The notes under the pieces: model-generated
The model's database searches: none
Seen by the model: only the letters and a program-made list of their open reading frames with translations
Told to the model about the DNA's origin: nothing
Shown: in pieces, positions 26,555 through 40,241 of the stretch
Position numbering within the stretch: the first letter of the stretch is position 1
How the letters are laid out: each line of letters starts with the position of its first letter
Source of the DNA: Ruminococcus sp.
GTDB lineage: Bacteria > Bacillota > Clostridia > Oscillospirales > Acutalibacteraceae
Assembly: GCA_017404665.1 (NCBI GenBank)
Contig: JAFRBX010000011.1
Location: 36,853-100,852, forward strand
Direction: 5' to 3'
DNA: 64,000 nt
Translations under genes and position numbers: made by a program

Positions 26555-26658
26555 GGACGACCACTGGTCGTCCGCAGAATGACGGGCGCTGCTATGATCG
26601 AAAACGTTAAATTGAATAGAAGTGTTTTGCCATGCGGACGAGCAATGCTCGTCCCTAC
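26551..26658. repeat. Family 4 palindromic element, copy a
   Basis: Ends GTAGGGACGACCACTGGTCG and GAGCAATGCTCGTCCCTAC, each with an internal hairpin, around GCAGAATGACGGGCG. The second copy at 30595-30704 is in the opposite orientation. It supplies the stop codon of the preceding gene. Confidence 0.85.
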
Positions 26659-26692
26659 AATTGACGCTTCATCACACAGAAAGGATATTCTT

Positions 26693-29542
26693 ATGAAATA
26701 TACCATCGGACAAACCATCCACGGCTTTATCGTGGAACAAAGCCGCCGGATCCGCGAACTCGGCGGCGATCTGTATATCCTGCGCCACCTGCACAGCGGC
26801 GCCATGCTGTGCTACATCGACTGTGACGACCGCAACATGACCTACTCCATTACCTTCGCGACCCCGTCGCATGACTCTACCGGCGTGTTCCATATTCTTG
26901 AGCACAGCGTCCTGTGCGGATCGGAAAAATATCCCGTTGACGATCCCTTTGTCGAGCTGATGAAAAGCTCGCTGTACACCTTCCTCAACGCGATGACCTT
27001 CCCCGACAAGACGATGTATCCCGTGTCGAGCATGAACGAAAAGGACCTGATGAACCTGATGTCTGTGTACACCGACGCGGTGTTCCGCCCGCTGATCTAC
27101 CGCGACGAGAAGGCGTTCCGTCAGGAGGGCTGGCACATCGAGCGCGATCAAGACGGCAAGCCGTACTATCAGGGCGTCGTGTATAACGAGATGAAGGGCG
27201 CGTTGGGCGACCCGGAGGAAAATCTGTATCAGGCAGTCTTTCAGGAGAGCTACGAGCCGTGCCAGTACACCACCGTCTCGGGCGGTCACCCCGACCATAT
27301 CGTCAAGCTGACCTACGAGGAATTTATCGCGAACCACAAAAAGTATTATCATCCCTCGAACGCCCGCTTTTACCTCTACGGTAAAATGGACGTCGAAGAG
27401 AAGCTCCGCTTCCTTGATGAAGAATATCTATGCAAGGTCGAGCCGCAGAAGGCGGTCAAAGAGCCGAAAATCGCGGTAAAGAAGCAGGACAAGCCGTATT
27501 ACTGCACCTATACGTCAAACGGCGAAAAAGCCGGCGAGGACTATGTCGCCTTCACCTATCCCGTCGGCGAAATGCCCGACTTCACCACCTACCTCGGGCT
27601 GTCCGTGCTGACCGACATCCTTGCGGACACCAACTATGACCCGCTGAAAAAGCGCATCCTCGACAAGGGGCTGGCGGTCGAGTGCGAATGCGAGATGATC
27701 GAGGATATCGCCTATCCGCTGTTCACGATCAAGCTGCGGCACTGTGACGCCTCCCGTCTCGACGAGATCGAGCGCGAGGTCACCGCCTGCCTGAACGAAT
27801 GCGCCGCGGGACTTGACAGGGAAGCGGTCAAAGCGAAGTTGAATACCGTGGAATTCAGCCTGCGCGAGGGCAGCGCCGCGGGGCTGACCAAGGGGCTGTA
27901 CTATAACATCCAGATCGCCGATACATGGCTGTACGGCTATGAGCCGTGGCGCTATCTCGAGTATGAAGCGCCTTTAGAGACGCTCAAAAGCGGCGCGGAG
28001 AACGGTTATTTCGAGCAGCTGATACAGAACGTATTGCTCCATAACGAATACCGCAATATCGTCGTGATGACCCCCACCGCGGCCGAGAAGAAATATAATG
28101 AACCCGACGACAATTCCTCTGAGAACGATCAGAAAGATATCTTTGAAATAGAGAAAGAAAACGGCACGCGTACCGATGCGCGCATCCCGAATCTGATTCT
28201 GTCGGATATCGACAAAAAAGCTATACCCTTCCTCACCGAAGTAAAGAAAAATCCCGACGCGTCGGGCAAGCCTTGTCTGTATCATCCGCTGAAGACCGAC
28301 GGAATCGTCTATGCCGACCTGTTTTTTGATATCAGCGGCGCAAACGAAGCCGAGCTGTTCCATCTGAGCATCCTCACGAGTCTGCTGACCAACATCGGCA
28401 CCGCCAAAACCGACGGCGGCGCCCTGCAGACCAAGCTGGGGCTGTACACCGGCTCGATGGGCATGTCGTGCACCGTATCAAGCTACGGCGAGAGGGTGAT
28501 CTCCTGCGCGACCCTGCGCTTCAAGGCGCTCGCCGAATACTATACTCAGGCGGCAGCCCTCGCCGAGGAAATTCTCACACAGACCGTCTTTGACGATCAA
28601 AAGGCAGTATGCGACCTGATCGACCAGATGCTGACCGAGCTGCAGCTGGGCTTTATCAACAATTCGAGCCAAATTGCCGCCTCCCGCGCCGCCGCCTCTC
28701 ACAACGTGCGCGACGCGATCGCAGACCGCACCGGCGGCATAGAATTCTATCTCAATCTCAAAGGTCTGAAAGAAGATCTGGATAAACACCCCGCATCCTA
28801 CGACGAGCTCAAAACAGCGCTGACGCGTGTCTATGAGAAATTCATCCGCGGCGGCAGCGCGGTCTGCTCGCTCGCCTGCGATGAGGAAAGCTATGAGCAG
28901 ATCAAGACCGTGCCCCTGCCCATGCAGGCCTGTCTGACCGATCGGCTGAACAACGCCGACACGCCCTTGCTCAGCGGCAATATCGCGCTCACGGCTCCCT
29001 GTGACATCGTGTTCAACGGCTATAGCTTCAACGCCGATAAAGGATTGAGCGGCGGCGCACTTCTGCTCGCGAAAAAGATCCTCTCCCTCGAGTACCTGTG
29101 GCAGAAGATCCGCGTCGAGAACGGCGCCTACGGCTGCGGCACGGTCCAGAGCTCCGCGAGGAGGCTCGACATGTGGAGCTACCGCGACCCGCAGATCAGC
29201 AGTACGCTTCATACCTTCCGTTATGCGGCGGATTTCCTTGCCGGGCTGAAGCTCAGCGGCCGCGCTCTCGAGGATTATATCATCAGCGTGGTGCGCAATC
29301 TCGACAACCCCCAGCTGCCGCGCGCGACCGCCTATCTGAGCTCTGTTTACCACCTGCTCGGTCGGGACAACAACGCGGTACAGAAGGAGCGCGACGAGCT
29401 GCTCTCGGCGACGCTCGCGGACCTCAACGAGATCGGCGAAAGGCTGAAGGCGGACGCGCAGAACGCCGCCTACTGCACCGTCGGCAGCAAGGATAACATC
29501 ATGGCAAACAAGGAGCTGTACGACAGTATTATTGAACTGTAG
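26693..29542 (+). CDS. M16C family zinc metallopeptidase (presequence-protease type)
   Basis: A 949-aa protein, the full length for a two-half M16C peptidase (PreP/Cym1-like). The inverted zinc motif HILEH is at residues 67-71, followed by SVLCGSEKYPVDDPF and, further on, YNEMKGA with the downstream Glu. No signal peptide, so it likely degrades short peptides in the cytoplasm. The start at 26693 is seven bases after AAAGGA; an upstream frame reaching 26579 is inside the family 4 repeat. It is a single gene that runs into element I. Confidence 0.93.
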   Translation: MKYTIGQTIHGFIVEQSRRIRELGGDLYILRHLHSGAMLCYIDCDDRNMTYSITFATPSHDSTGVFHILEHSVLCGSEKYPVDDPFVELMKSSLYTFLNAMTFPDKTMYPVSSMNEKDLMNLMSVYTDAVFRPLIYRDEKAFRQEGWHIERDQDGKPYYQGVVYNEMKGALGDPEENLYQAVFQESYEPCQYTTVSGGHPDHIVKLTYEEFIANHKKYYHPSNARFYLYGKMDVEEKLRFLDEEYLCKVEPQKAVKEPKIAVKKQDKPYYCTYTSNGEKAGEDYVAFTYPVGEMPDFTTYLGLSVLTDILADTNYDPLKKRILDKGLAVECECEMIEDIAYPLFTIKLRHCDASRLDEIEREVTACLNECAAGLDREAVKAKLNTVEFSLREGSAAGLTKGLYYNIQIADTWLYGYEPWRYLEYEAPLETLKSGAENGYFEQLIQNVLLHNEYRNIVVMTPTAAEKKYNEPDDNSSENDQKDIFEIEKENGTRTDARIPNLILSDIDKKAIPFLTEVKKNPDASGKPCLYHPLKTDGIVYADLFFDISGANEAELFHLSILTSLLTNIGTAKTDGGALQTKLGLYTGSMGMSCTVSSYGERVISCATLRFKALAEYYTQAAALAEEILTQTVFDDQKAVCDLIDQMLTELQLGFINNSSQIAASRAAASHNVRDAIADRTGGIEFYLNLKGLKEDLDKHPASYDELKTALTRVYEKFIRGGSAVCSLACDEESYEQIKTVPLPMQACLTDRLNNADTPLLSGNIALTAPCDIVFNGYSFNADKGLSGGALLLAKKILSLEYLWQKIRVENGAYGCGTVQSSARRLDMWSYRDPQISSTLHTFRYAADFLAGLKLSGRALEDYIISVVRNLDNPQLPRATAYLSSVYHLLGRDNNAVQKERDELLSATLADLNEIGERLKADAQNAAYCTVGSKDNIMANKELYDSIIEL

Positions 29543-31456: not shown

Positions 31457-32143
31457 CTAAACCCCGTACTTGATCTTGATCCTTTGCAGCTTATTGCCCA
31501 CGGGCTTCTTCAGAAGCAGCAGGAACACGACGTTCGATACAGCATACAGCGCCGTGAACGGCACAGCCGAAAGGATCGCCGAGAGATACAGCTTCCATTC
31601 AAAGCCGCCCGCATACCACAGCACCGTCCACACGTCCATGATCAGCGAGTACGCGGCGCCCGACAAAACGCCGTACAATATGAGTAACAGGCTGTGTTTC
31701 AGCAAAAAGCGCGACAGATAGCCAGCAAACAGCCCGATCAGCCCGAAAGCGAGCATCTGGAACGGCGTCCACGGTCCCTGCCCGAACCAGATGTTGGAGA
31801 TCAGCACAGAGAGCGCTCCGCACAGAAAGCCCGCCTGTGCGCCGAGATAAACGGCGGTCATCACACAGATCGCCGTGATCGGCTTGAACAGCGGGATGAA
31901 CCGCCCGAACACCGCGAGCGCCGTCATGATCGCTGTGATCACCATGCGCCGCGAGCCGATATTTTTCCGCTCAAAGCCCGTCATGAACAGCAGCAGCGCC
32001 AGCGCCGCGATCCCGAGCGACACGATCAGATACCGCTGACCCTCAAAGACGACCGCTGAGAGTATCACCGCGGCGGGGATCAGCACAAAGGGGATGATAT
32101 ACCGTAAAACCGTGCGCAGCCGCGCGTTTTGTATCACGATCAT
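31457..32143 (-). CDS. ECF transporter S component (inferred cobalamin or corrinoid)
   Basis: A 228-aa membrane protein. After a first helix pair, the S-component core runs from RRMVITAIMTALAVFGRFIP through KPITAICVMTAVYLGAQAGF to FGQGPWTPFQMLAFGLIGLF, a segment I associate with vitamin S components. It would bind the vitamin and dock to the T and A subunits encoded just upstream. The start codon overlaps the ATPase stop by four bases (ATGA). The riboswitch at the operon head makes cobalamin or a precursor the likely substrate. Confidence 0.85.
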   Translation of the reverse strand: MIVIQNARLRTVLRYIIPFVLIPAAVILSAVVFEGQRYLIVSLGIAALALLLFMTGFERKNIGSRRMVITAIMTALAVFGRFIPLFKPITAICVMTAVYLGAQAGFLCGALSVLISNIWFGQGPWTPFQMLAFGLIGLFAGYLSRFLLKHSLLLILYGVLSGAAYSLIMDVWTVLWYAGGFEWKLYLSAILSAVPFTALYAVSNVVFLLLLKKPVGNKLQRIKIKYGV

Positions 32144-33768
32144 AAGGCGCCCCCGTTGCGCCGTATCAGCGCGGCGGCACGCTCTGCCGTATACGCGCCG
32201 TCATAGCGGCAGCGGGTGATGCGCGAAGCGGCGGTGGTATAAAAACGGTTGCCGCTCATAAAACGCTGTGTCGTGTCGACAGCCGCGATCCTGCCCTGCG
32301 AGAACAGGGCACAGCGGTCGGCGCACAGGGCGGCAAACTCCACATCGTGGGTGATCAGCAGGACGGTCACGCCGTCCCCTTTCAGTTTTAATATGATATC
32401 GCGCAGCAGCGCTTTGGCGTTCGCGTCCAGCCCCTTTGACGGCTCGTCCATGATGAGCACGCCGGGCTTTGAGGACAATGCCTTACATAAAGCAACCAGC
32501 TGCCTTTCGCCGCCCGAGATATCGTAGGGATGGCGGCTGTAAAGGGGGCGCAGATCATAGGGGAAGCTGTCGATGACCGCTTCACAGTACTTGAGCTCCT
32601 CCCCGACCGTTTCATGGATGAAAACGCTCTCGACGTCCTGCGGCATCAGGCTGATATTGCCGCGGTAGAGCGAGCCGTTTGTGTAGCTTTTCAGGGGCTT
32701 TTTGAACAGCTTCATCGTGCCGCTGTACGGCTTTCTCAGCCCTGCCGCGACCGCCGCCGCGGTGCTTTTGCCCGCGCCGTTCGCGCCCAAAAGGGCGAAC
32801 ACCTCGCCGCGGTACACGGTCATGTCCAGATCCCGCAGGATATCCGCGCCGTTCCTCTCATAGCAAAAGCAGATGTTTTTCAGCGATAAGGCTTCTTCCC
32901 GATTTTCAATGACAGCTTCGTCGTTCAAGGAGCGGACGGTATTGTCAAAATTTTCCACAAAACGCTGTCCTTCGCGGATGGTCAGCGGGAGCTCTCCCCT
33001 GCCGTTCACCGCGTGAAAAATTCGCGCCGCCGTCGGCAAGAAGCCCATGAACGGGCTGTCCGGTGCGTCGACTGCGGTCGCGGCCGAGGTCGCGACCTCA
33101 CGCGGCGTGCCGTCATACACGAGCCTTCCCCGATCCAGCACCACGACGCGGTCCGAGAGCGCAAACAGCTCCTCCGAGCGGTGCTCACAGATCAGCACCG
33201 TCACCCCCGTCTCGCGGTTGAGGCGGTACACGGTCGAGAGAAAGCGCGACGCGGCGATCGGGTCGAGCTGCGCCGTCGGCTCGTCGAGCAGTAACAGCTC
33301 CGGGTCGGCGGTCATCACGGCGGCGAGGTTCAACAGCTGTTTTTCGCCGCCGGAGAGGGTCGCCGTATCGCGTTCAAGCCACGCGTCCATGTCAAAATAC
33401 GCGGCGATCTCGGCGACGCGGCGGGCGATGTCCCGCTGTTTCGCGCCGAGGTTCTCGAGCGTGAAGGCAAGCTCATGCCACACCTTATCAGTAACGATCT
33501 GCTCCTCGGGATTCTGCGCCACATACCCGACGGTACGTGTACCGTTGTTTTCTATATCCATACCGTCATATTTGATTTTTCCCGCGAGCGTGCCGTTCTG
33601 CCGCAGCTCAGGCTTGAGCAGTCTTAACAGGGTGCTTTTGCCCGAGCCGGTCGCGCCCATCAGTGTGACGAACGCGCCGTGTCCGATCGAAAGGCAGATA
33701 TCCGACAGCGCCTTTTCATCCGCGTTCGGATAAGTAAAGCTCAGATTTTGGATATCGATATGCGCCAT
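32140..33768 (-). CDS. ECF transporter energizing ATPase with two fused ABC domains
   Basis: A 542-aa fusion of the two ECF ATPases (A and A'). Domain 1: GATGSGKSTLLRLL, LSGGEKQLLNLA, LLLLDEPTAQLD. Domain 2: GANGAGKSTAAAVA, ISGGERQLVALC, VLIMDEPSKGLD. No membrane segments. The start at 33768 follows GGAGG by seven bases and lies inside the end of the T component gene (28-bp overlap). A dedicated A-A fusion within the operon shows that this transporter does not rely on the shared module. Confidence 0.93.
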   Translation of the reverse strand: MAHIDIQNLSFTYPNADEKALSDICLSIGHGAFVTLMGATGSGKSTLLRLLKPELRQNGTLAGKIKYDGMDIENNGTRTVGYVAQNPEEQIVTDKVWHELAFTLENLGAKQRDIARRVAEIAAYFDMDAWLERDTATLSGGEKQLLNLAAVMTADPELLLLDEPTAQLDPIAASRFLSTVYRLNRETGVTVLICEHRSEELFALSDRVVVLDRGRLVYDGTPREVATSAATAVDAPDSPFMGFLPTAARIFHAVNGRGELPLTIREGQRFVENFDNTVRSLNDEAVIENREEALSLKNICFCYERNGADILRDLDMTVYRGEVFALLGANGAGKSTAAAVAAGLRKPYSGTMKLFKKPLKSYTNGSLYRGNISLMPQDVESVFIHETVGEELKYCEAVIDSFPYDLRPLYSRHPYDISGGERQLVALCKALSSKPGVLIMDEPSKGLDANAKALLRDIILKLKGDGVTVLLITHDVEFAALCADRCALFSQGRIAAVDTTQRFMSGNRFYTTAASRITRCRYDGAYTAERAAALIRRNGGAL

Positions 33769-34610
33769 CGGATCGCCTCCGTTCCATTTATTGTCAGCGG
33801 CAGAACGCTCAGCAGAGTGAACGCCCCCGCACCCGCGATCCCCCACGGGGATAGTAAATCCATGTCGAGCACGGGGTAAAAGACTACCTCGCTGTGATAA
33901 ACCCCGACTGCCGTCAGCGCTGTCAGCGCGGCACAAACGAACATGAATAACGCATCATACGCATGCACGCGATAGACGGCATACGAGGTGCGCCGCGCCG
34001 TGCCCCAGCCGCGTGATTCCATGCTCTCGGCGGTGACGATGCCGTTCTCCAGCGTCCACGTGATCAGAATCGACAGCACCCGTGCCCTGCCGCGCACGGC
34101 GTCGATCAGGTTGCCGTCATCGTACAGCCCGAGGGCTTTCTGGCTGTCCTGTATTTTTCTATAGCGCACCCTGAGCAGATGCACATAGCGTATCGTCATC
34201 GACAGCAGCAGGGCGAGCTTCGGCGAGAAGCGCCCGAAGAGATACAGCACCTTGTCGCTTGACAGCACGCGGCTGAGCTCCCGCAGGCGATACAAGGCGG
34301 CGGTCAGCATACACGCGGCTGAGAGTCCGTACACAGCCGCTTCCAGCGTGAAGGGGCGGTCGTTGAGGTAGAACAGCACGGTCACGCCCTTGTGCACGAA
34401 CAGCGGATTCAGCACCGCAGCGACAAGGAATACGATCGCCGAAAAGAGATGCGCTCTGCCGTTTGCCGTACCCGTCAGAACGGCGCTGAGCACGCTCGTC
34501 AGCAGCGCGATCGCAAGCAGCAGCGGGTTCATCGAGAACATGATGAGCCCCAGCACGCACAGGTAGTACACCGCGACCGCAAAGGGATTCAGTTGTTCAA
34601 AACACTTCAT
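33741..34610 (-). CDS. ECF transporter T component (CbiQ-like)
   Basis: A 289-aa membrane protein with hydrophobic helices at about 12-60, 90-115 and 225-285 and a long charged cytoplasmic stretch between them. That stretch contains the coupling motifs of T components: FSPKLALLLSMTIRYVHLL and TAESMESRGWG. It couples the ATPase to the S component. GGAG lies six bases before the ATG. It is separated from the upstream binding-protein gene by 138 bases of repeat. Confidence 0.92.
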   Translation of the reverse strand: MKCFEQLNPFAVAVYYLCVLGLIMFSMNPLLLAIALLTSVLSAVLTGTANGRAHLFSAIVFLVAAVLNPLFVHKGVTVLFYLNDRPFTLEAAVYGLSAACMLTAALYRLRELSRVLSSDKVLYLFGRFSPKLALLLSMTIRYVHLLRVRYRKIQDSQKALGLYDDGNLIDAVRGRARVLSILITWTLENGIVTAESMESRGWGTARRTSYAVYRVHAYDALFMFVCAALTALTAVGVYHSEVVFYPVLDMDLLSPWGIAGAGAFTLLSVLPLTINGTEAIRWRISISKI

Positions 34611-34616
34611 AAAAAA

Positions 34617-34748
34617 CTCCGTTTTTCAGATAACAGATAACAGATAACAGATAATAGAGAACAGTGAAGGACGGGCTCTGCCCGCACCCAATGCTATTCG
34701 GAGCGAAGCAACCCTATTAACTAACTGCCAGCCACTAACCACTAACCA
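34617..34748. repeat. Family 2 composite element C inside the cobalamin operon
   Basis: Left arm of ATAACAG heptads, GTGAAGGACGGGCTCTGCCCGC, a short middle, then a right arm of a different heptad, CCACTAA. The right arm provides the TAG stop of the transcobalamin-like gene (34749). No U-tailed hairpin, so read-through to the transporter genes is plausible. Confidence 0.8.
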
Positions 34749-36653
34749 CTATTCTAAGTCTTTCCCGATATTCGTCGTATAGAGCCATTCGATCACGTCG
34801 CCCTCGCTGACGGCATAGCTCTGGCAGCCGACGTCGGGGAATTCGCCGTTGACGCGGTACATCCAGCCCGACAGCTCGCCGTAATCGTACTCGTACAGAC
34901 AGTTGACGCCCGCGATGTACGCCGCGCCCCGCGCGCCGCGGTTGTCGAGCGGGATCCCGTTCTCAGCCGCCGCCCGCGTCAAAACGTCATAGACCGTGTC
35001 GCCCTCGTCGGCTTTGCATACCGTTGTATCCAGTATCACCCCGTCGTCGGGGATGAAGTCGTTGACCTTCTCAAGCCCCGTGACCGTATCACAGCGGACG
35101 CTCACGGTGACCGTCAGCGCGCCGTCCGATTTCGCGGGCTGACGGTAGCTGTCGGCGCTCTTAAAATCAGTCAGCAGGATGAATAATATGCCTGCCGCCG
35201 TGAGGATGCCGACGGCGATATAGTGCTTTTTGCCGCGTTTTTTCAGCAGGAACAGCACGCCGCACACAATGCCCGATACACCGATCACCGCGAATATCGC
35301 CCACAGCTTATAGCCCCCGCCGCTGGGGTTATCGCTTTTGATCCGCGTGTCGGCAGTCGCGTTGGGCTGCAGCCCGCCGTAAGTCGGCTTGACGGTCACA
35401 TCCGCCGACGCGTCGGCGGACGCCGCCTGCGGCGCTTCGGTCTCGCTGATATTCACCGTCACCGGCTCTCCCGACGCGTCGGTCGCCTCGATGAACCGCT
35501 GACCGTTGATGACGATGATGCGGCTGCCGGAGCTGTCCGTCTGCGGCGTGTCGCTTGCAGTAGCATGATCTGCGGCGCTTGAGCCCGCATTCTTCGTCCC
35601 GCCGCCGCTGTTATTTCCGTTATTCTGTGTATTTCTTCCGCTGCCGTCATTGCCGCCCTGTCGGGGTGAGCCCTGAGGGTCATCCGTATCATTTCCCGGC
35701 GGCGTATCATGCACCGCGTGGTCGAGCAGGTACAGCGGACCCTGACCGTAACAGTACCTCTCGTAAGCCGTCAGGGCGCAGAACACCTGCATGGTCGCGT
35801 TGGAGTTGGAAACGTCGATGTGCGCAAAGCTGCCGTCGCCGACGGAATAGCGCAGCATGGCGTTCATCACGGAGCCGCCGTCTTTGATAAATCTGCCGTC
35901 GGTCTGCGCGTCTACGCCCAGCGCCGAAAGCGCGATGATGACCTGCGCGGCGCTCTCACAGTTCTCGGCGCCCATCGTCTTGAAGCCGCCGCTGTCGAGC
36001 TGTCTGTCGGACAGGAGCATGAGCGCTCTGTCGACAGCGTCCGTCACGTCGCCGCGCCGCCCGTAATAGGGCGCCAGCGCCTGCAGGGTCATGGCGGTCA
36101 CATCCACGTCGCCGTAGGAGCCCATCACCGCCCAGCCGCCGTCGCTTTTCTGCCATGATAACAGCTCCGTCACCAGACCGTCGGCGCTGTACAGGGCGCT
36201 GTCATAGCCGTTGTTGAGCAGGTGCAGACCGAACACAAGGCTCATGACGCCCAGCCCGCCGATCGCCTCGTCCGCGGTATCGGCGATATAGCTGTCGGTA
36301 CTGCCCGCGGCTGCCAGCGCCAGCGCGTATTTCTCACGGCTTGTCGCGGAGTTGACCGCGTGAGTATCGATATAGGATAAGAGGGCGCTTTCATAGCGCG
36401 AAAAATCGTAGTTTCCCGACTGGGAGAGGGCGATCGCGTAGAACTCGGCGGACTCGCCCGCGCCGGCGCACAGAGAGCCGTCGATAAAGTCCTGCGCGCC
36501 GTAAGCTCCGTTATATGCGACGATACCGTCGCGCAGGCTCTGCACCTGAGCGACGGTATAGGTTTCCTGTGTGCCTTCGGCGCGCGCAGACACTGCCGTC
36601 AGCCATAGCAGCGGCAGGATCAGCAATACGGCGAAGATCTTATTTTTTCGCAT
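34749..36653 (-). CDS. Membrane-anchored transcobalamin-like protein (alpha/alpha barrel plus DUF4430 domain)
   Basis: A 634-aa protein with a signal peptide (1-25). Residues about 30-315 form alpha-helical repeats with QKSDGGWAVMGSYGDVDVTA and LDSGGFKTMGAENCES, like squalene cyclase/prenyltransferase and transcobalamin alpha6/alpha6 barrels. A Gly/Asn/Ser linker runs to about 445, two membrane helices follow (449-470 and 478-495) with KKRGKKH between them, and the C-terminal domain (512-630) is a DUF4430 domain ending GWMYRVNGEFPDVG ... EGDVIEWLYTTNIG. DUF4430 matches the small beta domain of transcobalamin and intrinsic factor. Both halves would face outside, joined by a membrane hairpin. 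The start at 36653 overlaps the previous gene by 14 bp. I infer corrinoid capture for the ECF transporter. Confidence 0.85.
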   Translation of the reverse strand: MRKNKIFAVLLILPLLWLTAVSARAEGTQETYTVAQVQSLRDGIVAYNGAYGAQDFIDGSLCAGAGESAEFYAIALSQSGNYDFSRYESALLSYIDTHAVNSATSREKYALALAAAGSTDSYIADTADEAIGGLGVMSLVFGLHLLNNGYDSALYSADGLVTELLSWQKSDGGWAVMGSYGDVDVTAMTLQALAPYYGRRGDVTDAVDRALMLLSDRQLDSGGFKTMGAENCESAAQVIIALSALGVDAQTDGRFIKDGGSVMNAMLRYSVGDGSFAHIDVSNSNATMQVFCALTAYERYCYGQGPLYLLDHAVHDTPPGNDTDDPQGSPRQGGNDGSGRNTQNNGNNSGGGTKNAGSSAADHATASDTPQTDSSGSRIIVINGQRFIEATDASGEPVTVNISETEAPQAASADASADVTVKPTYGGLQPNATADTRIKSDNPSGGGYKLWAIFAVIGVSGIVCGVLFLLKKRGKKHYIAVGILTAAGILFILLTDFKSADSYRQPAKSDGALTVTVSVRCDTVTGLEKVNDFIPDDGVILDTTVCKADEGDTVYDVLTRAAAENGIPLDNRGARGAAYIAGVNCLYEYDYGELSGWMYRVNGEFPDVGCQSYAVSEGDVIEWLYTTNIGKDLE

Positions 36654-37635
36654 AACGCTTTTTATAAACAATGATCGCGATAACAACGCCCGCGAAGCAT
36701 ACTCCGGCGATCAGGATCCACAGCCACAGCATGGTGACGTCGCCCGTCTTGGGGTTGGTTGTAGCGGTTTTAGCCGCGGTATCCTTGGTGGCGGTGTCCT
36801 TAGTCGCTTCATCCTTGGTGGCGGGGGCGGTGGGAGCAACAGCCGCGCTTTCGGTGGCGGCAGGCTCGGTCGCGTCGCCGATCACGGCAGGCGCGTCGGT
36901 CGGATCCGCCTCGTCGGGAGTAGCGATGGGCTCTTCGCCCGCGATCTTGACGCGGTATACGGGGGACACGACGGTCTTGTCCTTGACGGCAGCGCTGACA
37001 AGATGCTCGCCGGGCGTCTCGATCGTAAGGGACGCCTTACCCTGTGCGTCGGTCATCACGCCGGTCGGCTCGCCGTCAACGGTGAGCTCAGCGCCCTCCA
37101 TCGGCAGACGGACCGTGTTGTAATACTCGTCAAAGCCGAGCTGACTCAGGGTCAGCGCGATCTCGCCCGGCTGAACCTCCTCGTCCGTGAAACGGTCGAA
37201 GAACAGGTAGATATCGGACCAGAACTTGGTATCTCTGTAAATATAAGCGGCGACATAATCGTCAGCCTTGACCGGCTGCGCGAGGTTCCACACCGGGTCG
37301 CCGTTGTTGAGCTGATAGCTGAAGTTGCCGCTTGTGTCGCCCCAGAGCTTCTGCAGCGACAGACCGTAATCCTTGTGCGTGTAGTAACCGTAGCCTGCGG
37401 CGGCGCCGCCCTCATACAGCTTTTCGTGAGCGGCATACAGCGCGTCGTTGATGGTCAGGGTGTTATCGCCGTCGATATCGGTGACGGAAACCTTTTCCGC
37501 CGCCGCGGCGAGCTTGCCGTCCTTGTCGGCGATGGTGACATACACGGTCGTGCCCTCGCCCTCAGCGGACGCGAACAGAACGCTGACGGACAGCAGGAGC
37601 GCCAAAGCCATCAGTAAAGCTAACATTTTTTTCAT
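36640..37635 (-). CDS. Cell-wall-anchored protein with transcobalamin beta-like domain and sortase signal
   Basis: A 331-aa exported protein. Signal peptide 1-25. Residues 28-148 resemble the DUF4430/transcobalamin beta domain, with an Asp-rich loop (TDIDGDNTLTINDALYAAHE), GYGYYTHKDYGLSLQKLWGD and YQLNNGDPVWNLAQPVKADD. An Ig-like segment follows (about 175-232), then a Thr/Ala/Pro linker. The C terminus is a sorting signal: NPKTG at 294-298, a hydrophobic helix and KKRYAKK. It is first in the cobalamin operon, behind the riboswitch, so it probably binds or relays corrinoids at the wall. The stop overlaps the next start. Confidence 0.85.
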   Translation of the reverse strand: MKKMLALLMALALLLSVSVLFASAEGEGTTVYVTIADKDGKLAAAAEKVSVTDIDGDNTLTINDALYAAHEKLYEGGAAAGYGYYTHKDYGLSLQKLWGDTSGNFSYQLNNGDPVWNLAQPVKADDYVAAYIYRDTKFWSDIYLFFDRFTDEEVQPGEIALTLSQLGFDEYYNTVRLPMEGAELTVDGEPTGVMTDAQGKASLTIETPGEHLVSAAVKDKTVVSPVYRVKIAGEEPIATPDEADPTDAPAVIGDATEPAATESAAVAPTAPATKDEATKDTATKDTAAKTATTNPKTGDVTMLWLWILIAGVCFAGVVIAIIVYKKRYAKK

Positions 37636-37703
37636 TTTTCATACCTCATTTCACGAAAGTGTTTTTGCTGTATTTTCATCCACCCTAGGGTGAAGAATAA
37701 ATG

Positions 37704-37735
37704 AAAAACAAAACGCTCTTTCCGAAGAAAGAGCG
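37704..37735 (-). terminator. Riboswitch-controlled terminator
   Basis: Minus strand CGCTCTTTC, loop TTCG, GAAAGAGCG, then TTTTGTTTTT: a textbook intrinsic terminator between the aptamer and the first gene. A second copy of GCTCTTTC lies upstream (37755-37762) and could pair with the same 3' arm. Confidence 0.85.
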
Positions 37736-37805
37736 CGTCAAACAAGCGTAGGGCGAAAGAGCCTTACACATTTTTCGCACTCTTCCTGCCAAAGCGGCTT
37801 ACTCG

Positions 37806-37997
37806 GATACGGCAGGTCTCCCGGCTTATGAGGAAGCGCGTCATGCGGCGCGCGCGGACGGGAACCTTCTCGGAACACTCCAATGGTATTCTCCCATCCT
37901 CTGCTCAATCACGGTAGTGGCGGCTGCTCCGGATTCGAACCGGATTCCCTTTTGATCTACTTGGTTTCGCTCAGCGTACAACGTTTCAAACCGTATC
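37806..37997 (-). promoter_or_regulatory. Cobalamin riboswitch aptamer
   Basis: Conserved blocks in order on the minus strand: GGGAATCCGG, the B12-box-like GGAGCAGCCGCCACTACCG, GAGAATACCATTGGAGTG, and AAGCCGGGAGACCTGCC near the 3' end, the hallmark of this class. The closing stem P1 is visible: GATACGG (37997-37991) pairs with CCGTATC (37812-37806). A terminator and then the transcobalamin-like genes follow, so adenosylcobalamin or a related corrinoid should switch the operon off. With the leader this explains the 514-bp gap 37636-38149. Confidence 0.92.
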
Positions 37998-38149
37998 GCT
38001 ATTCAGTTATTTTCATTATACATGAGCCTGTGACAAATTGCAATCGGGAAAAGGTTACAATTCTGTCAGAAAAAGGCTTGTTCAGCAAAATGCCGCCGTA
38101 ACGCTGAGGCGCGTCTGCGCCCCGCGTCACAGCGGCGACTCATGCTGTT

Positions 38150-39162: not shown

Positions 39163-39756
39163 ATGGCATATATTTTCGGCGCAATGATCGCGGGCTCGTT
39201 TCTCTACGCGCTTTGCAGCGCGGGACTCCCCGAGCTGAGCGCGGGAATACTGGATTCAGCGGGAGCGGCGGTACAGCTGCTGATCTCGATCAGCGGGATG
39301 CTGATCATGTGGTCGGGCTTTATGCGGATCGCGAAGGACAGCGGGCTGATCGAGAAGCTCTCGCGCCTGTTCGCGCCGCTGCTCAGGCGGCTGTACCCCG
39401 ACATAGCGCCCGAGTCTGACGCGTTCCGCTGTATCTCGATGAACATCAGCGCCAATCTTTTGGGACTGGGCAACGCCGCGACGCCGCTTGGGCTGAGCGC
39501 GATACGGCAGATGCGGGCGCAGAGCGGCAGCGATACCGCGACCGACAGCATGGTGACCTTCGTCATCATGAACACCGCGTCGATCCAGCTGATCCCGACG
39601 ACGGTCGCGGCGCTGCGCAAAAGCTTCGGCTCACAGCAGCCGTTCGATATTTTATTGTGCGTATGGCTCACCTCGGCTGTCGCGCTGACGGCGGGGCTGT
39701 TCTCATCCTATCTGATAAGGAGGGCTTCATGGAAGCGGTCATCCCGGTCATTGTGA
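39163..39756 (+). CDS. spmA: Spore maturation protein A (nucleoside recognition domain)
   Basis: A 197-aa membrane protein. ISGMLIMWSGFMRIAKDSGL, the MNISANLLGLGNAATPLGL segment and FVIMNTASIQLIP are hallmarks of SpmA, which with SpmB is needed for spore core dehydration in Bacillus. AGGTGA lies seven bases upstream of the start. The end overlaps spmB by 28 bp. Confidence 0.93.
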   Translation: MAYIFGAMIAGSFLYALCSAGLPELSAGILDSAGAAVQLLISISGMLIMWSGFMRIAKDSGLIEKLSRLFAPLLRRLYPDIAPESDAFRCISMNISANLLGLGNAATPLGLSAIRQMRAQSGSDTATDSMVTFVIMNTASIQLIPTTVAALRKSFGSQQPFDILLCVWLTSAVALTAGLFSSYLIRRASWKRSSRSL

Positions 39757-40241
39757 CCGCGCTGTGCGTGTACGGTCTGTGCAAGCGCGTGAATATCTTC
39801 GACAGCTTTGTCGAGGGAGCCAAGGAGGGTATCGCGACGGTGAAGTTCATCGCGCCCACGATGATCGCCCTGCTCGTAGCGGTCGGCACCCTTCGCGCCT
39901 CGGGAGCGCTCGACGCGCTCGCCGACCTGATCCGACCGATAGCCGAAAGCATCGGCTTCCCCACGGAGCTGGTGCCGATGGCGCTGCTGCGGCCGGTGTC
40001 GGGCTCGGGAGCGACCGCGCTGCTGACGGGCATCTATGAGCACAGCGGTCCCGACAGCTTTGTCGGACGCTGCGCCAGCGTGGTGGCGGGCTCTACGGAG
40101 ACGACATTTTACGCCGTGACCATGTACTACGGTGCGGCGGGGATCAAAAAAATCCGCCATACGCTCATATCGGCGCTGCTGGCGGACCTTACTGCTGTCG
40201 TGTTCAGTGTGCTGACGGTGGGGCTCTTAATGGGTAGTTAA
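39729..40241 (+). CDS. spmB: Spore maturation protein B
   Basis: A 170-aa membrane protein with about four helices. NIFDSFVEGAKEGIATV, the LLRPVSGSGATALL segment and VVAGSTETTFYAVTMYYGA are typical of SpmB. The start at 39729 follows AAGGAGG by five bases, inside spmA. The stop lies at the edge of repeat element D. Confidence 0.93.
   Translation: MEAVIPVIVTALCVYGLCKRVNIFDSFVEGAKEGIATVKFIAPTMIALLVAVGTLRASGALDALADLIRPIAESIGFPTELVPMALLRPVSGSGATALLTGIYEHSGPDSFVGRCASVVAGSTETTFYAVTMYYGAAGIKKIRHTLISALLADLTAVVFSVLTVGLLMGS

Follow-up and report, generated by a model that had tools for sequence, protein, structure and literature searches.

Which compound is imported by a five-gene operon that stands behind a cobalamin riboswitch in a Ruminococcus sp. 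genome, and how is it caught outside the cell? The operon was analyzed in a stretch of 64,000 nucleotides (assembly GCA_017404665.1, contig JAFRBX010000011.1, positions 36,853 to 100,852), called the window below, to which all coordinates refer unless a locus or another genome is named. The region from 38010 to 31457 on the minus strand carries, in this order behind the riboswitch, genes for a predicted wall-anchored beta-domain protein (P1), a predicted membrane-tethered barrel plus DUF4430 protein (P2), and the T, fused A-A and S components of an energy-coupling factor (ECF) transporter. The overall function is very probably corrinoid import, and with the same high confidence the locus is best explained as a B12-repressed corrinoid capture-and-import system. 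P1 and P2 overlap by 14 nt if P2 starts at the ATG at 36653, T and A-A by 28 nt, and A-A and S by 4 nt; 138 nt separate P2 from T. All parts listed in an earlier note on this DNA, with their order and overlaps on one strand, were recovered.

The riboswitch was identified with cmscan as a full RF00174 aptamer (37794..38010, minus strand; 85.7 bits against a gathering score of 31.5 bits, E 1e-19, model positions 1-189 of 189). The 5' limit of the region had been placed at 37997; this was not borne out, the aptamer extending to 38010. Nothing else in the window reached an Rfam gathering score, and a single RF00174 match was obtained in the source genome (G000; 2.47 Mb, 96% complete) with stricter filters, by which some weak matches are lost. 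An intrinsic terminator with a 10-pair stem, a 4-base loop and a T-rich tail (37713..37736, minus strand; fold z -2.89) is placed between the aptamer and P1, the first gene, and is likely the expression platform; the riboswitch with its own terminator is therefore present as first described. The 5' end of the aptamer is abutted by a promoter-like TTGCAA-17-TATAAT (38015..38043, minus strand; consensus scan, 10/12), by itself no evidence of function.

The transporter genes were examined by profile searches. The EcfT/CbiQ-like transmembrane component T (33741..34610, minus strand) matched PF02361 (CbiQ) at 21.3 bits, below the cut-off of 25. The fused ATPase pair A-A (32140..33768, minus strand) contains two ABC_tran stretches by Pfam, and its best NCBIfam match was ECF_ATPase_1 (300.7 bits, cut-off 315). 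S (31457..32143, minus strand) exceeded the cut-offs of PF07155 and PF12822 (ECF-ribofla_trS, 37.3 bits; ECF_trnsprt, 36.8 bits). T, two A domains and S were thus found together, as claimed, with T below its Pfam cut-off. A 24-sequence profile of S was compared with the PDB and matched 6fnp_A (E 1.1e-17), followed by 4hzu_S (3.5e-5) and RibU 3p5n (0.0074), which places S closer to CbrT than to the other solved S components. According to the excerpted text of PMC5997447, 6FNP is ECF-CbrT, an importer of cobalamin and cobinamide. Besides the riboswitch, homology to CbrT is the strongest sequence-level evidence for the putative substrate. A BtuFCD importer was considered and rejected, as no BtuF-type binding protein is encoded in the operon; one PF01497 match (31.9 bits) lies elsewhere in the source genome.

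A CbrT-homologous S component and an ECF energising module are shared with ECF-CbrT of Lactobacillus delbrueckii, and its host and the present one are alike in being apparently unable to make the corrin ring, as judged by CbiD. There, a single ECF module serves eight predicted S components, CbrT among them (PMC5997447, excerpt), whereas here T, A-A and S are encoded in one operon with two surface proteins, and S carries about 58 additional N-terminal residues. The presence of T, A-A and S in one overlapping operon suggests an energising module of its own.

P2 (34749..36653, minus strand) lies in an open reading frame (36686-34749) that opens at a TTG at 36686; the start is likely the ATG at 36653, giving 634 amino acids. 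The protein consists of a signal peptide or N-terminal transmembrane helix, a helical barrel (approximately 30-304), a long disordered linker, a hairpin of two transmembrane helices (448-469 and 475-494) and a DUF4430 beta domain (approximately 512-630). PF14478 (DUF4430) was matched at 64.6 bits (cut-off 23.8) and, at E <= 0.01, by all 60 aligned P2 members; DUF4430 is located in the C-terminal region of transcobalamins (PMC4350170, excerpt). In a Foldseek search with the AlphaFold2 model (mean predicted local distance difference test score (pLDDT) 83.4), transcobalamin, haptocorrin and intrinsic factor took ranks 1-15 with a loose overall superposition, and in the model a barrel precedes a beta domain within a single chain, the architecture known from transcobalamin and intrinsic factor. 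Realignment with VIA gave no transcobalamin row among the 50 matches listed, which excludes nothing. Barrel profiles matched terpene cyclases, not transcobalamin. The description of P2 as a membrane-anchored protein with a transcobalamin-like barrel and a DUF4430 domain agrees with these results. As far as architecture goes, the suggested parallel to intrinsic factor is fair, but it does not extend to the sequence family: P2 gave no score against PF01122, the eukaryotic cobalamin-binding family, for which no match over the curated cut-off was found in 60 genomes and three weak matches were all on contigs other than those of P2.

At least two hydrophobic segments beyond residue 300 were present in each of the 60 aligned P2 members. 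In P2 of the window they stand between barrel and beta domain and are joined by a basic loop (KKRGKKH), so both domains should face outside. With this topology the barrel would hang from a linker some 140 residues long, and the beta domain would sit close to the membrane, beside the expected position of S. Other members of the genus encode barrel and DUF4430 domain as two proteins; further families show different orders of barrel, beta and immunoglobulin (Ig)-like domains, or frames with two barrels. Such domain shuffling fits a joint action of barrel, beta and Ig-like domains on one ligand.

P1 (36640..37635, minus strand; 331 amino acids) comprises a signal peptide, a domain resembling the transcobalamin beta domain (approximately 26-140), an Ig-like domain (approximately 141-233), a Thr/Ala-rich linker, a sorting-type signal, a transmembrane segment and a basic tail. 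Its C-terminus reads NPKTGD, transmembrane segment, KKRYAKK. Motif, hydrophobic stretch and basic tail of a sortase substrate are all present, ten sortase matches were found in the genome, and the tail pattern recurred in 38 of 62 aligned P1 members; P1 is probably secreted and sorted to the cell wall. The AlphaFold2 model had a mean pLDDT of 86.2 (ectodomain blocks 91-98). Transcobalamin was absent among the 50 best Foldseek matches listed for this model and surfaced on VIA realignment, where the human transcobalamin beta domain took ranks 1-3; the likeness of P1 to this domain rests on the VIA alignment of a predicted fold. PF14478 was not listed for P1 at its cut-off of 23.8 bits and was matched by one of the 62 aligned members, and profile comparison with DUF4430 by hhalign was weak (18.5%); proteins at the position of P1 in seven split-operon loci reached 99.3%. 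No match came from searching P1 alone or the DUF4430 profile against the sequences of solved structures, and the P1 profile brought four chance-level matches. The claim of a sortase-type wall protein with a transcobalamin-beta-like domain is upheld by the tail and the VIA ranks, with Pfam blind to the domain.

Human transcobalamin, intrinsic factor and haptocorrin share with P2 the order barrel then beta domain, and the beta fold also with P1. Eukaryotic B12 carriers are soluble proteins; P2 differs from the human ones by the long linker and the two transmembrane helices between the domains and by the missing sequence match to PF01122. A further structural match to the P2 model was 3u7z (RUMGNA_00854 of Ruminococcus gnavus; Foldseek TMt 0.66 over 114 columns, the beta domain by size), a 97-residue chain with the title "putative metal binding protein", in which no established role is given. 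It may be a corrinoid-binding domain. An "additional lipoprotein component of putative cobalamin ECF transporter" is annotated in PMC9963975 (excerpt), and cbrS is named adjacent to cbrT in PMC5997447 (excerpt); both are, like P1 and P2, extracellular accessories tied to a cobalamin ECF transporter. In a strain other than that with the annotated lipoprotein, a DUF4430 protein of unknown function is encoded near rtpR (PMC9963975, excerpt). The product of rtpR is B12-dependent. BtuH of Bacteroides also comprises surface B12 catchers that feed an importer in gut bacteria; its B12 domain is without known structural homologues (PMC8941943, excerpt), whereas P1 and P2 have predicted folds like transcobalamin and are encoded with an ECF importer. 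A search of the open-licence literature, preprints excluded, turned up no account of this operon or of a barrel-plus-beta protein in bacteria. Already in print are the annotation of a cobalamin ECF lipoprotein and DUF4430 in transcobalamins; apparently new is the operon with the barrel-plus-beta protein.

Recurrence was analyzed in three samples. Of 60 genomes sampled from the genus, 43 encode P2 and 44 encode S; 42 have the two together and 15 lack both. The three discordant genomes (G034, G068 and G082) consist of 230-370 contigs each. P2 and riboswitch were searched together in 36 genus genomes, of which 24 had both, 2 P2 only, 2 the riboswitch only and 8 neither. Among the 43 P2-bearing genomes, 39 were scanned for the riboswitch, with 27 matches over a gathering score, 8 below threshold and 4 genomes without a match in the scanned sequence.

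At least 566 barrel loci were present in the scanned genome collection, and the best 80 of these were taken as named loci (Ruminococcus, Oscillospiraceae, Lachnospiraceae and other Clostridia). Some repeat genus loci (L123 = G017, L124 = G012, L127 = G066, L139 = G059), and the riboswitch model R1, built from 24 riboswitches of such loci, includes at least three of the 80 (L123, L124, L139). A riboswitch match was located upstream of the barrel gene in 64 of the 80 named loci, 61 at E <= 0.01 and three above (L171, L138 and L159, the last covering only 24 positions); all 68 riboswitch matches in these loci were on the strand of the operon. The upstream sequence of the 16 loci without a match was shorter than 1 kb in six, 1.4 kb in one and at least 4 kb in nine, including L143, where the contig ends within the operon. 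Rfam was negative as well in eight of these nine, L192 being outside the Rfam rescan. At least two of T, A-A and S were encoded beside the barrel in 70 of the 80 loci, with the complete set in 65; the downstream sequence is shorter than 1.6 kb in eight of the ten loci with fewer than two.

Of 299 genomes from 215 genera in a phylum-wide sample, 53 genomes from 40 genera contained the barrel (E <= 1e-15). Twenty loci chosen by the authors from the 53 genomes contained T, A-A and S in 15 cases, DUF4430 in 19 and a riboswitch match in 14; by our reading, 12 of the 14 directly precede the barrel or ECF genes and share their strand. L254, L264 and L267 have truncated upstream ends. T and S were missing from five of the 20, and in L252, L257 and L260 a riboswitch match was missing as well with the upstream end not cut off. 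No other kind of riboswitch was listed in the window and 22 loci scanned with all Rfam models. Two refuting outcomes named in the earlier note, predicted folds unlike transcobalamin domains and a different riboswitch, thus did not occur. A chance arrangement was rejected, because further cases of it were found in the genus, in the majority of the 80 named loci and across the phylum; the expectations that the gene order would be found in other genomes and that a cobalamin riboswitch would precede it there held in most loci. Sixty records were returned by a search of plasmid nucleotide sequences; coverage of the query stayed below 80% in every one, and the top five were 2% stretches in Ensifer.

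Variants of the regulation were also observed. A second cobalamin riboswitch match is located between P2 and T in L161 (11548-11691), L163 (11566-11709), L164 (11667-11801) and L174 (11625-11758), which may allow separate control of the surface proteins and the transporter. Short riboswitches in L099 (2407-2546; 43.1 bits), L098 (5391-5547; 36.6 bits) and L081 (2968-3108; 30.9 bits) matched best, below the gathering score, to the adenosylcobalamin (AdoCbl) family RF01482; the same operon seems to be combined with more than one aptamer class. Genome G043 (L101, L102, L103) has three cobalamin riboswitches, before a beta-barrel fusion protein, a gene which we take to be MetE-like and a DUF4430 - A-A - S cluster. 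In one genome (G327:C10:390323-412234) the barrel was matched six times, once within a 3648-residue frame; L252, the locus fetched from it, has no T, S or riboswitch match nearby, and some barrels may therefore do something else.

The source genome encodes one protein with a B12-binding domain (PF02310). It is MetH-like, with homocysteine, pterin and B12 domains, no activation domain listed and a MetF-like reductase nearby, and it scored 449 bits against TIGR02082 (cut-off 1010.85). A candidate CobA/BtuR-like adenosyltransferase is present. Corrin synthesis was judged by CbiD only; CbiD was absent from all 60 genus genomes, and corrinoid import is therefore probably needed. PF02310 proteins were found in 59 of the 60, including P2-less ones, so other routes of corrinoid supply must exist. 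A small DUF4430 gene is present in 11 of the 17 genus genomes lacking P2 (two in G067). In the operon-less G026 (L113, 12198-13448), a riboswitch is followed by a small DUF4430 lipoprotein and a 170-residue CbrT-like S, whose best solved relative is CbrT (E 2.6e-5). This is a simpler variant of the same idea, without barrel, second beta protein or wall anchor.

The following mechanism is proposed; its clamp-and-pass details are held with moderate confidence. When cellular B12 is low, the riboswitch would let transcription pass the terminator, as expected from RF00174 and the terminator. P1 would be secreted and probably wall-sorted, its predicted transcobalamin-beta-like domain held outside as an additional outlying catcher. 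P2 would be held in the membrane by its two-helix hairpin, with the linker-borne barrel and the DUF4430 domain outside, and the two would close over a corrinoid, by analogy with the two-domain make-up of transcobalamin and intrinsic factor. The CbrT-like S would then receive the corrinoid, and its co-encoded T/A-A module would drive ATP-dependent entry. The cargo would supply the MetH-like methionine synthase in a cell probably unable to make the corrin ring. Corrinoid binding by P1 and P2 and the hand-off to S are inferred.

Among the alternatives, import of a precursor or another corrinoid (cobinamide, pseudocobalamin) in place of cobalamin itself, with surface proteins of broad or different specificity, is the least improbable, although still unlikely. 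The riboswitch indicates a corrinoid, not which one, and corrinoids in the rumen are diverse; a complete cobamide is required by MetH. Cobalamin and cobinamide are both carried by CbrT (PMC5997447, excerpt). That the surface proteins are receptors or thieves, docking onto or stripping B12 carriers such as haptocorrin, intrinsic factor or BtuG-like proteins, is improbable: P1 is predicted to be wall-anchored and outermost and many genomes with barrel loci are named as gut or rumen, but P1 and P2 carry the fold of ligand-binding carriers rather than of carrier receptors, and many hosts are metagenome-assembled genomes from rumen or hindgut, where free microbial corrinoids abound. Very improbable is a barrel that is an enzyme, of the type II terpene-cyclase (catalytic motif DxDD/DxDT) or prenyltransferase-like kind, and merely shares the operon; P2 has a signal peptide, a predicted extracellular placement and a one-chain fusion to a transcobalamin beta-like domain, many loci combine the barrel with a B12 riboswitch and genes for T, A-A and S, and no isoprenoid gene was found in the operon by Pfam scan. 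An ECF module that is merely B12-repressed and imports a non-corrinoid was dismissed as the least probable reading, riboflavin because S, despite its Pfam label of an ECF-type riboflavin S component, is far nearer CbrT than RibU, and cobalt, whose transporters are among genes under cobalamin riboswitches (PMC3766115, excerpt), because a genus with CbiD absent from 60 of 60 genomes should have no need of cobalt for making B12 and no CbiM match was listed for S.

Elsewhere in the window, a pair of PF07670 Gate proteins (39163-40241, plus strand), presumably resembling the spore maturation proteins SpmA/SpmB, and a PreP-like M16C peptidase (26579-29542, plus strand; PF08367, PF22516) were found.

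The corrinoid capture-and-import reading suggests that bacteria would use the design of human B12 carriers to catch B12 outside the cell, and the operon, with at least 566 barrel loci, is a concrete and common candidate for this. The data allow a common origin with the animal carriers; that these descend from, or share an ancestor with, a complete, membrane-tethered carrier system of Clostridia coupled to an ECF importer, and did not arise independently from terpene-cyclase-like barrels, is put forward tentatively, as the less probable view. If the ectodomains bind corrinoids, a likely role would be given to many DUF4430 proteins, and the operon would provide a bacterial point of comparison for the origin of transcobalamin and intrinsic factor.

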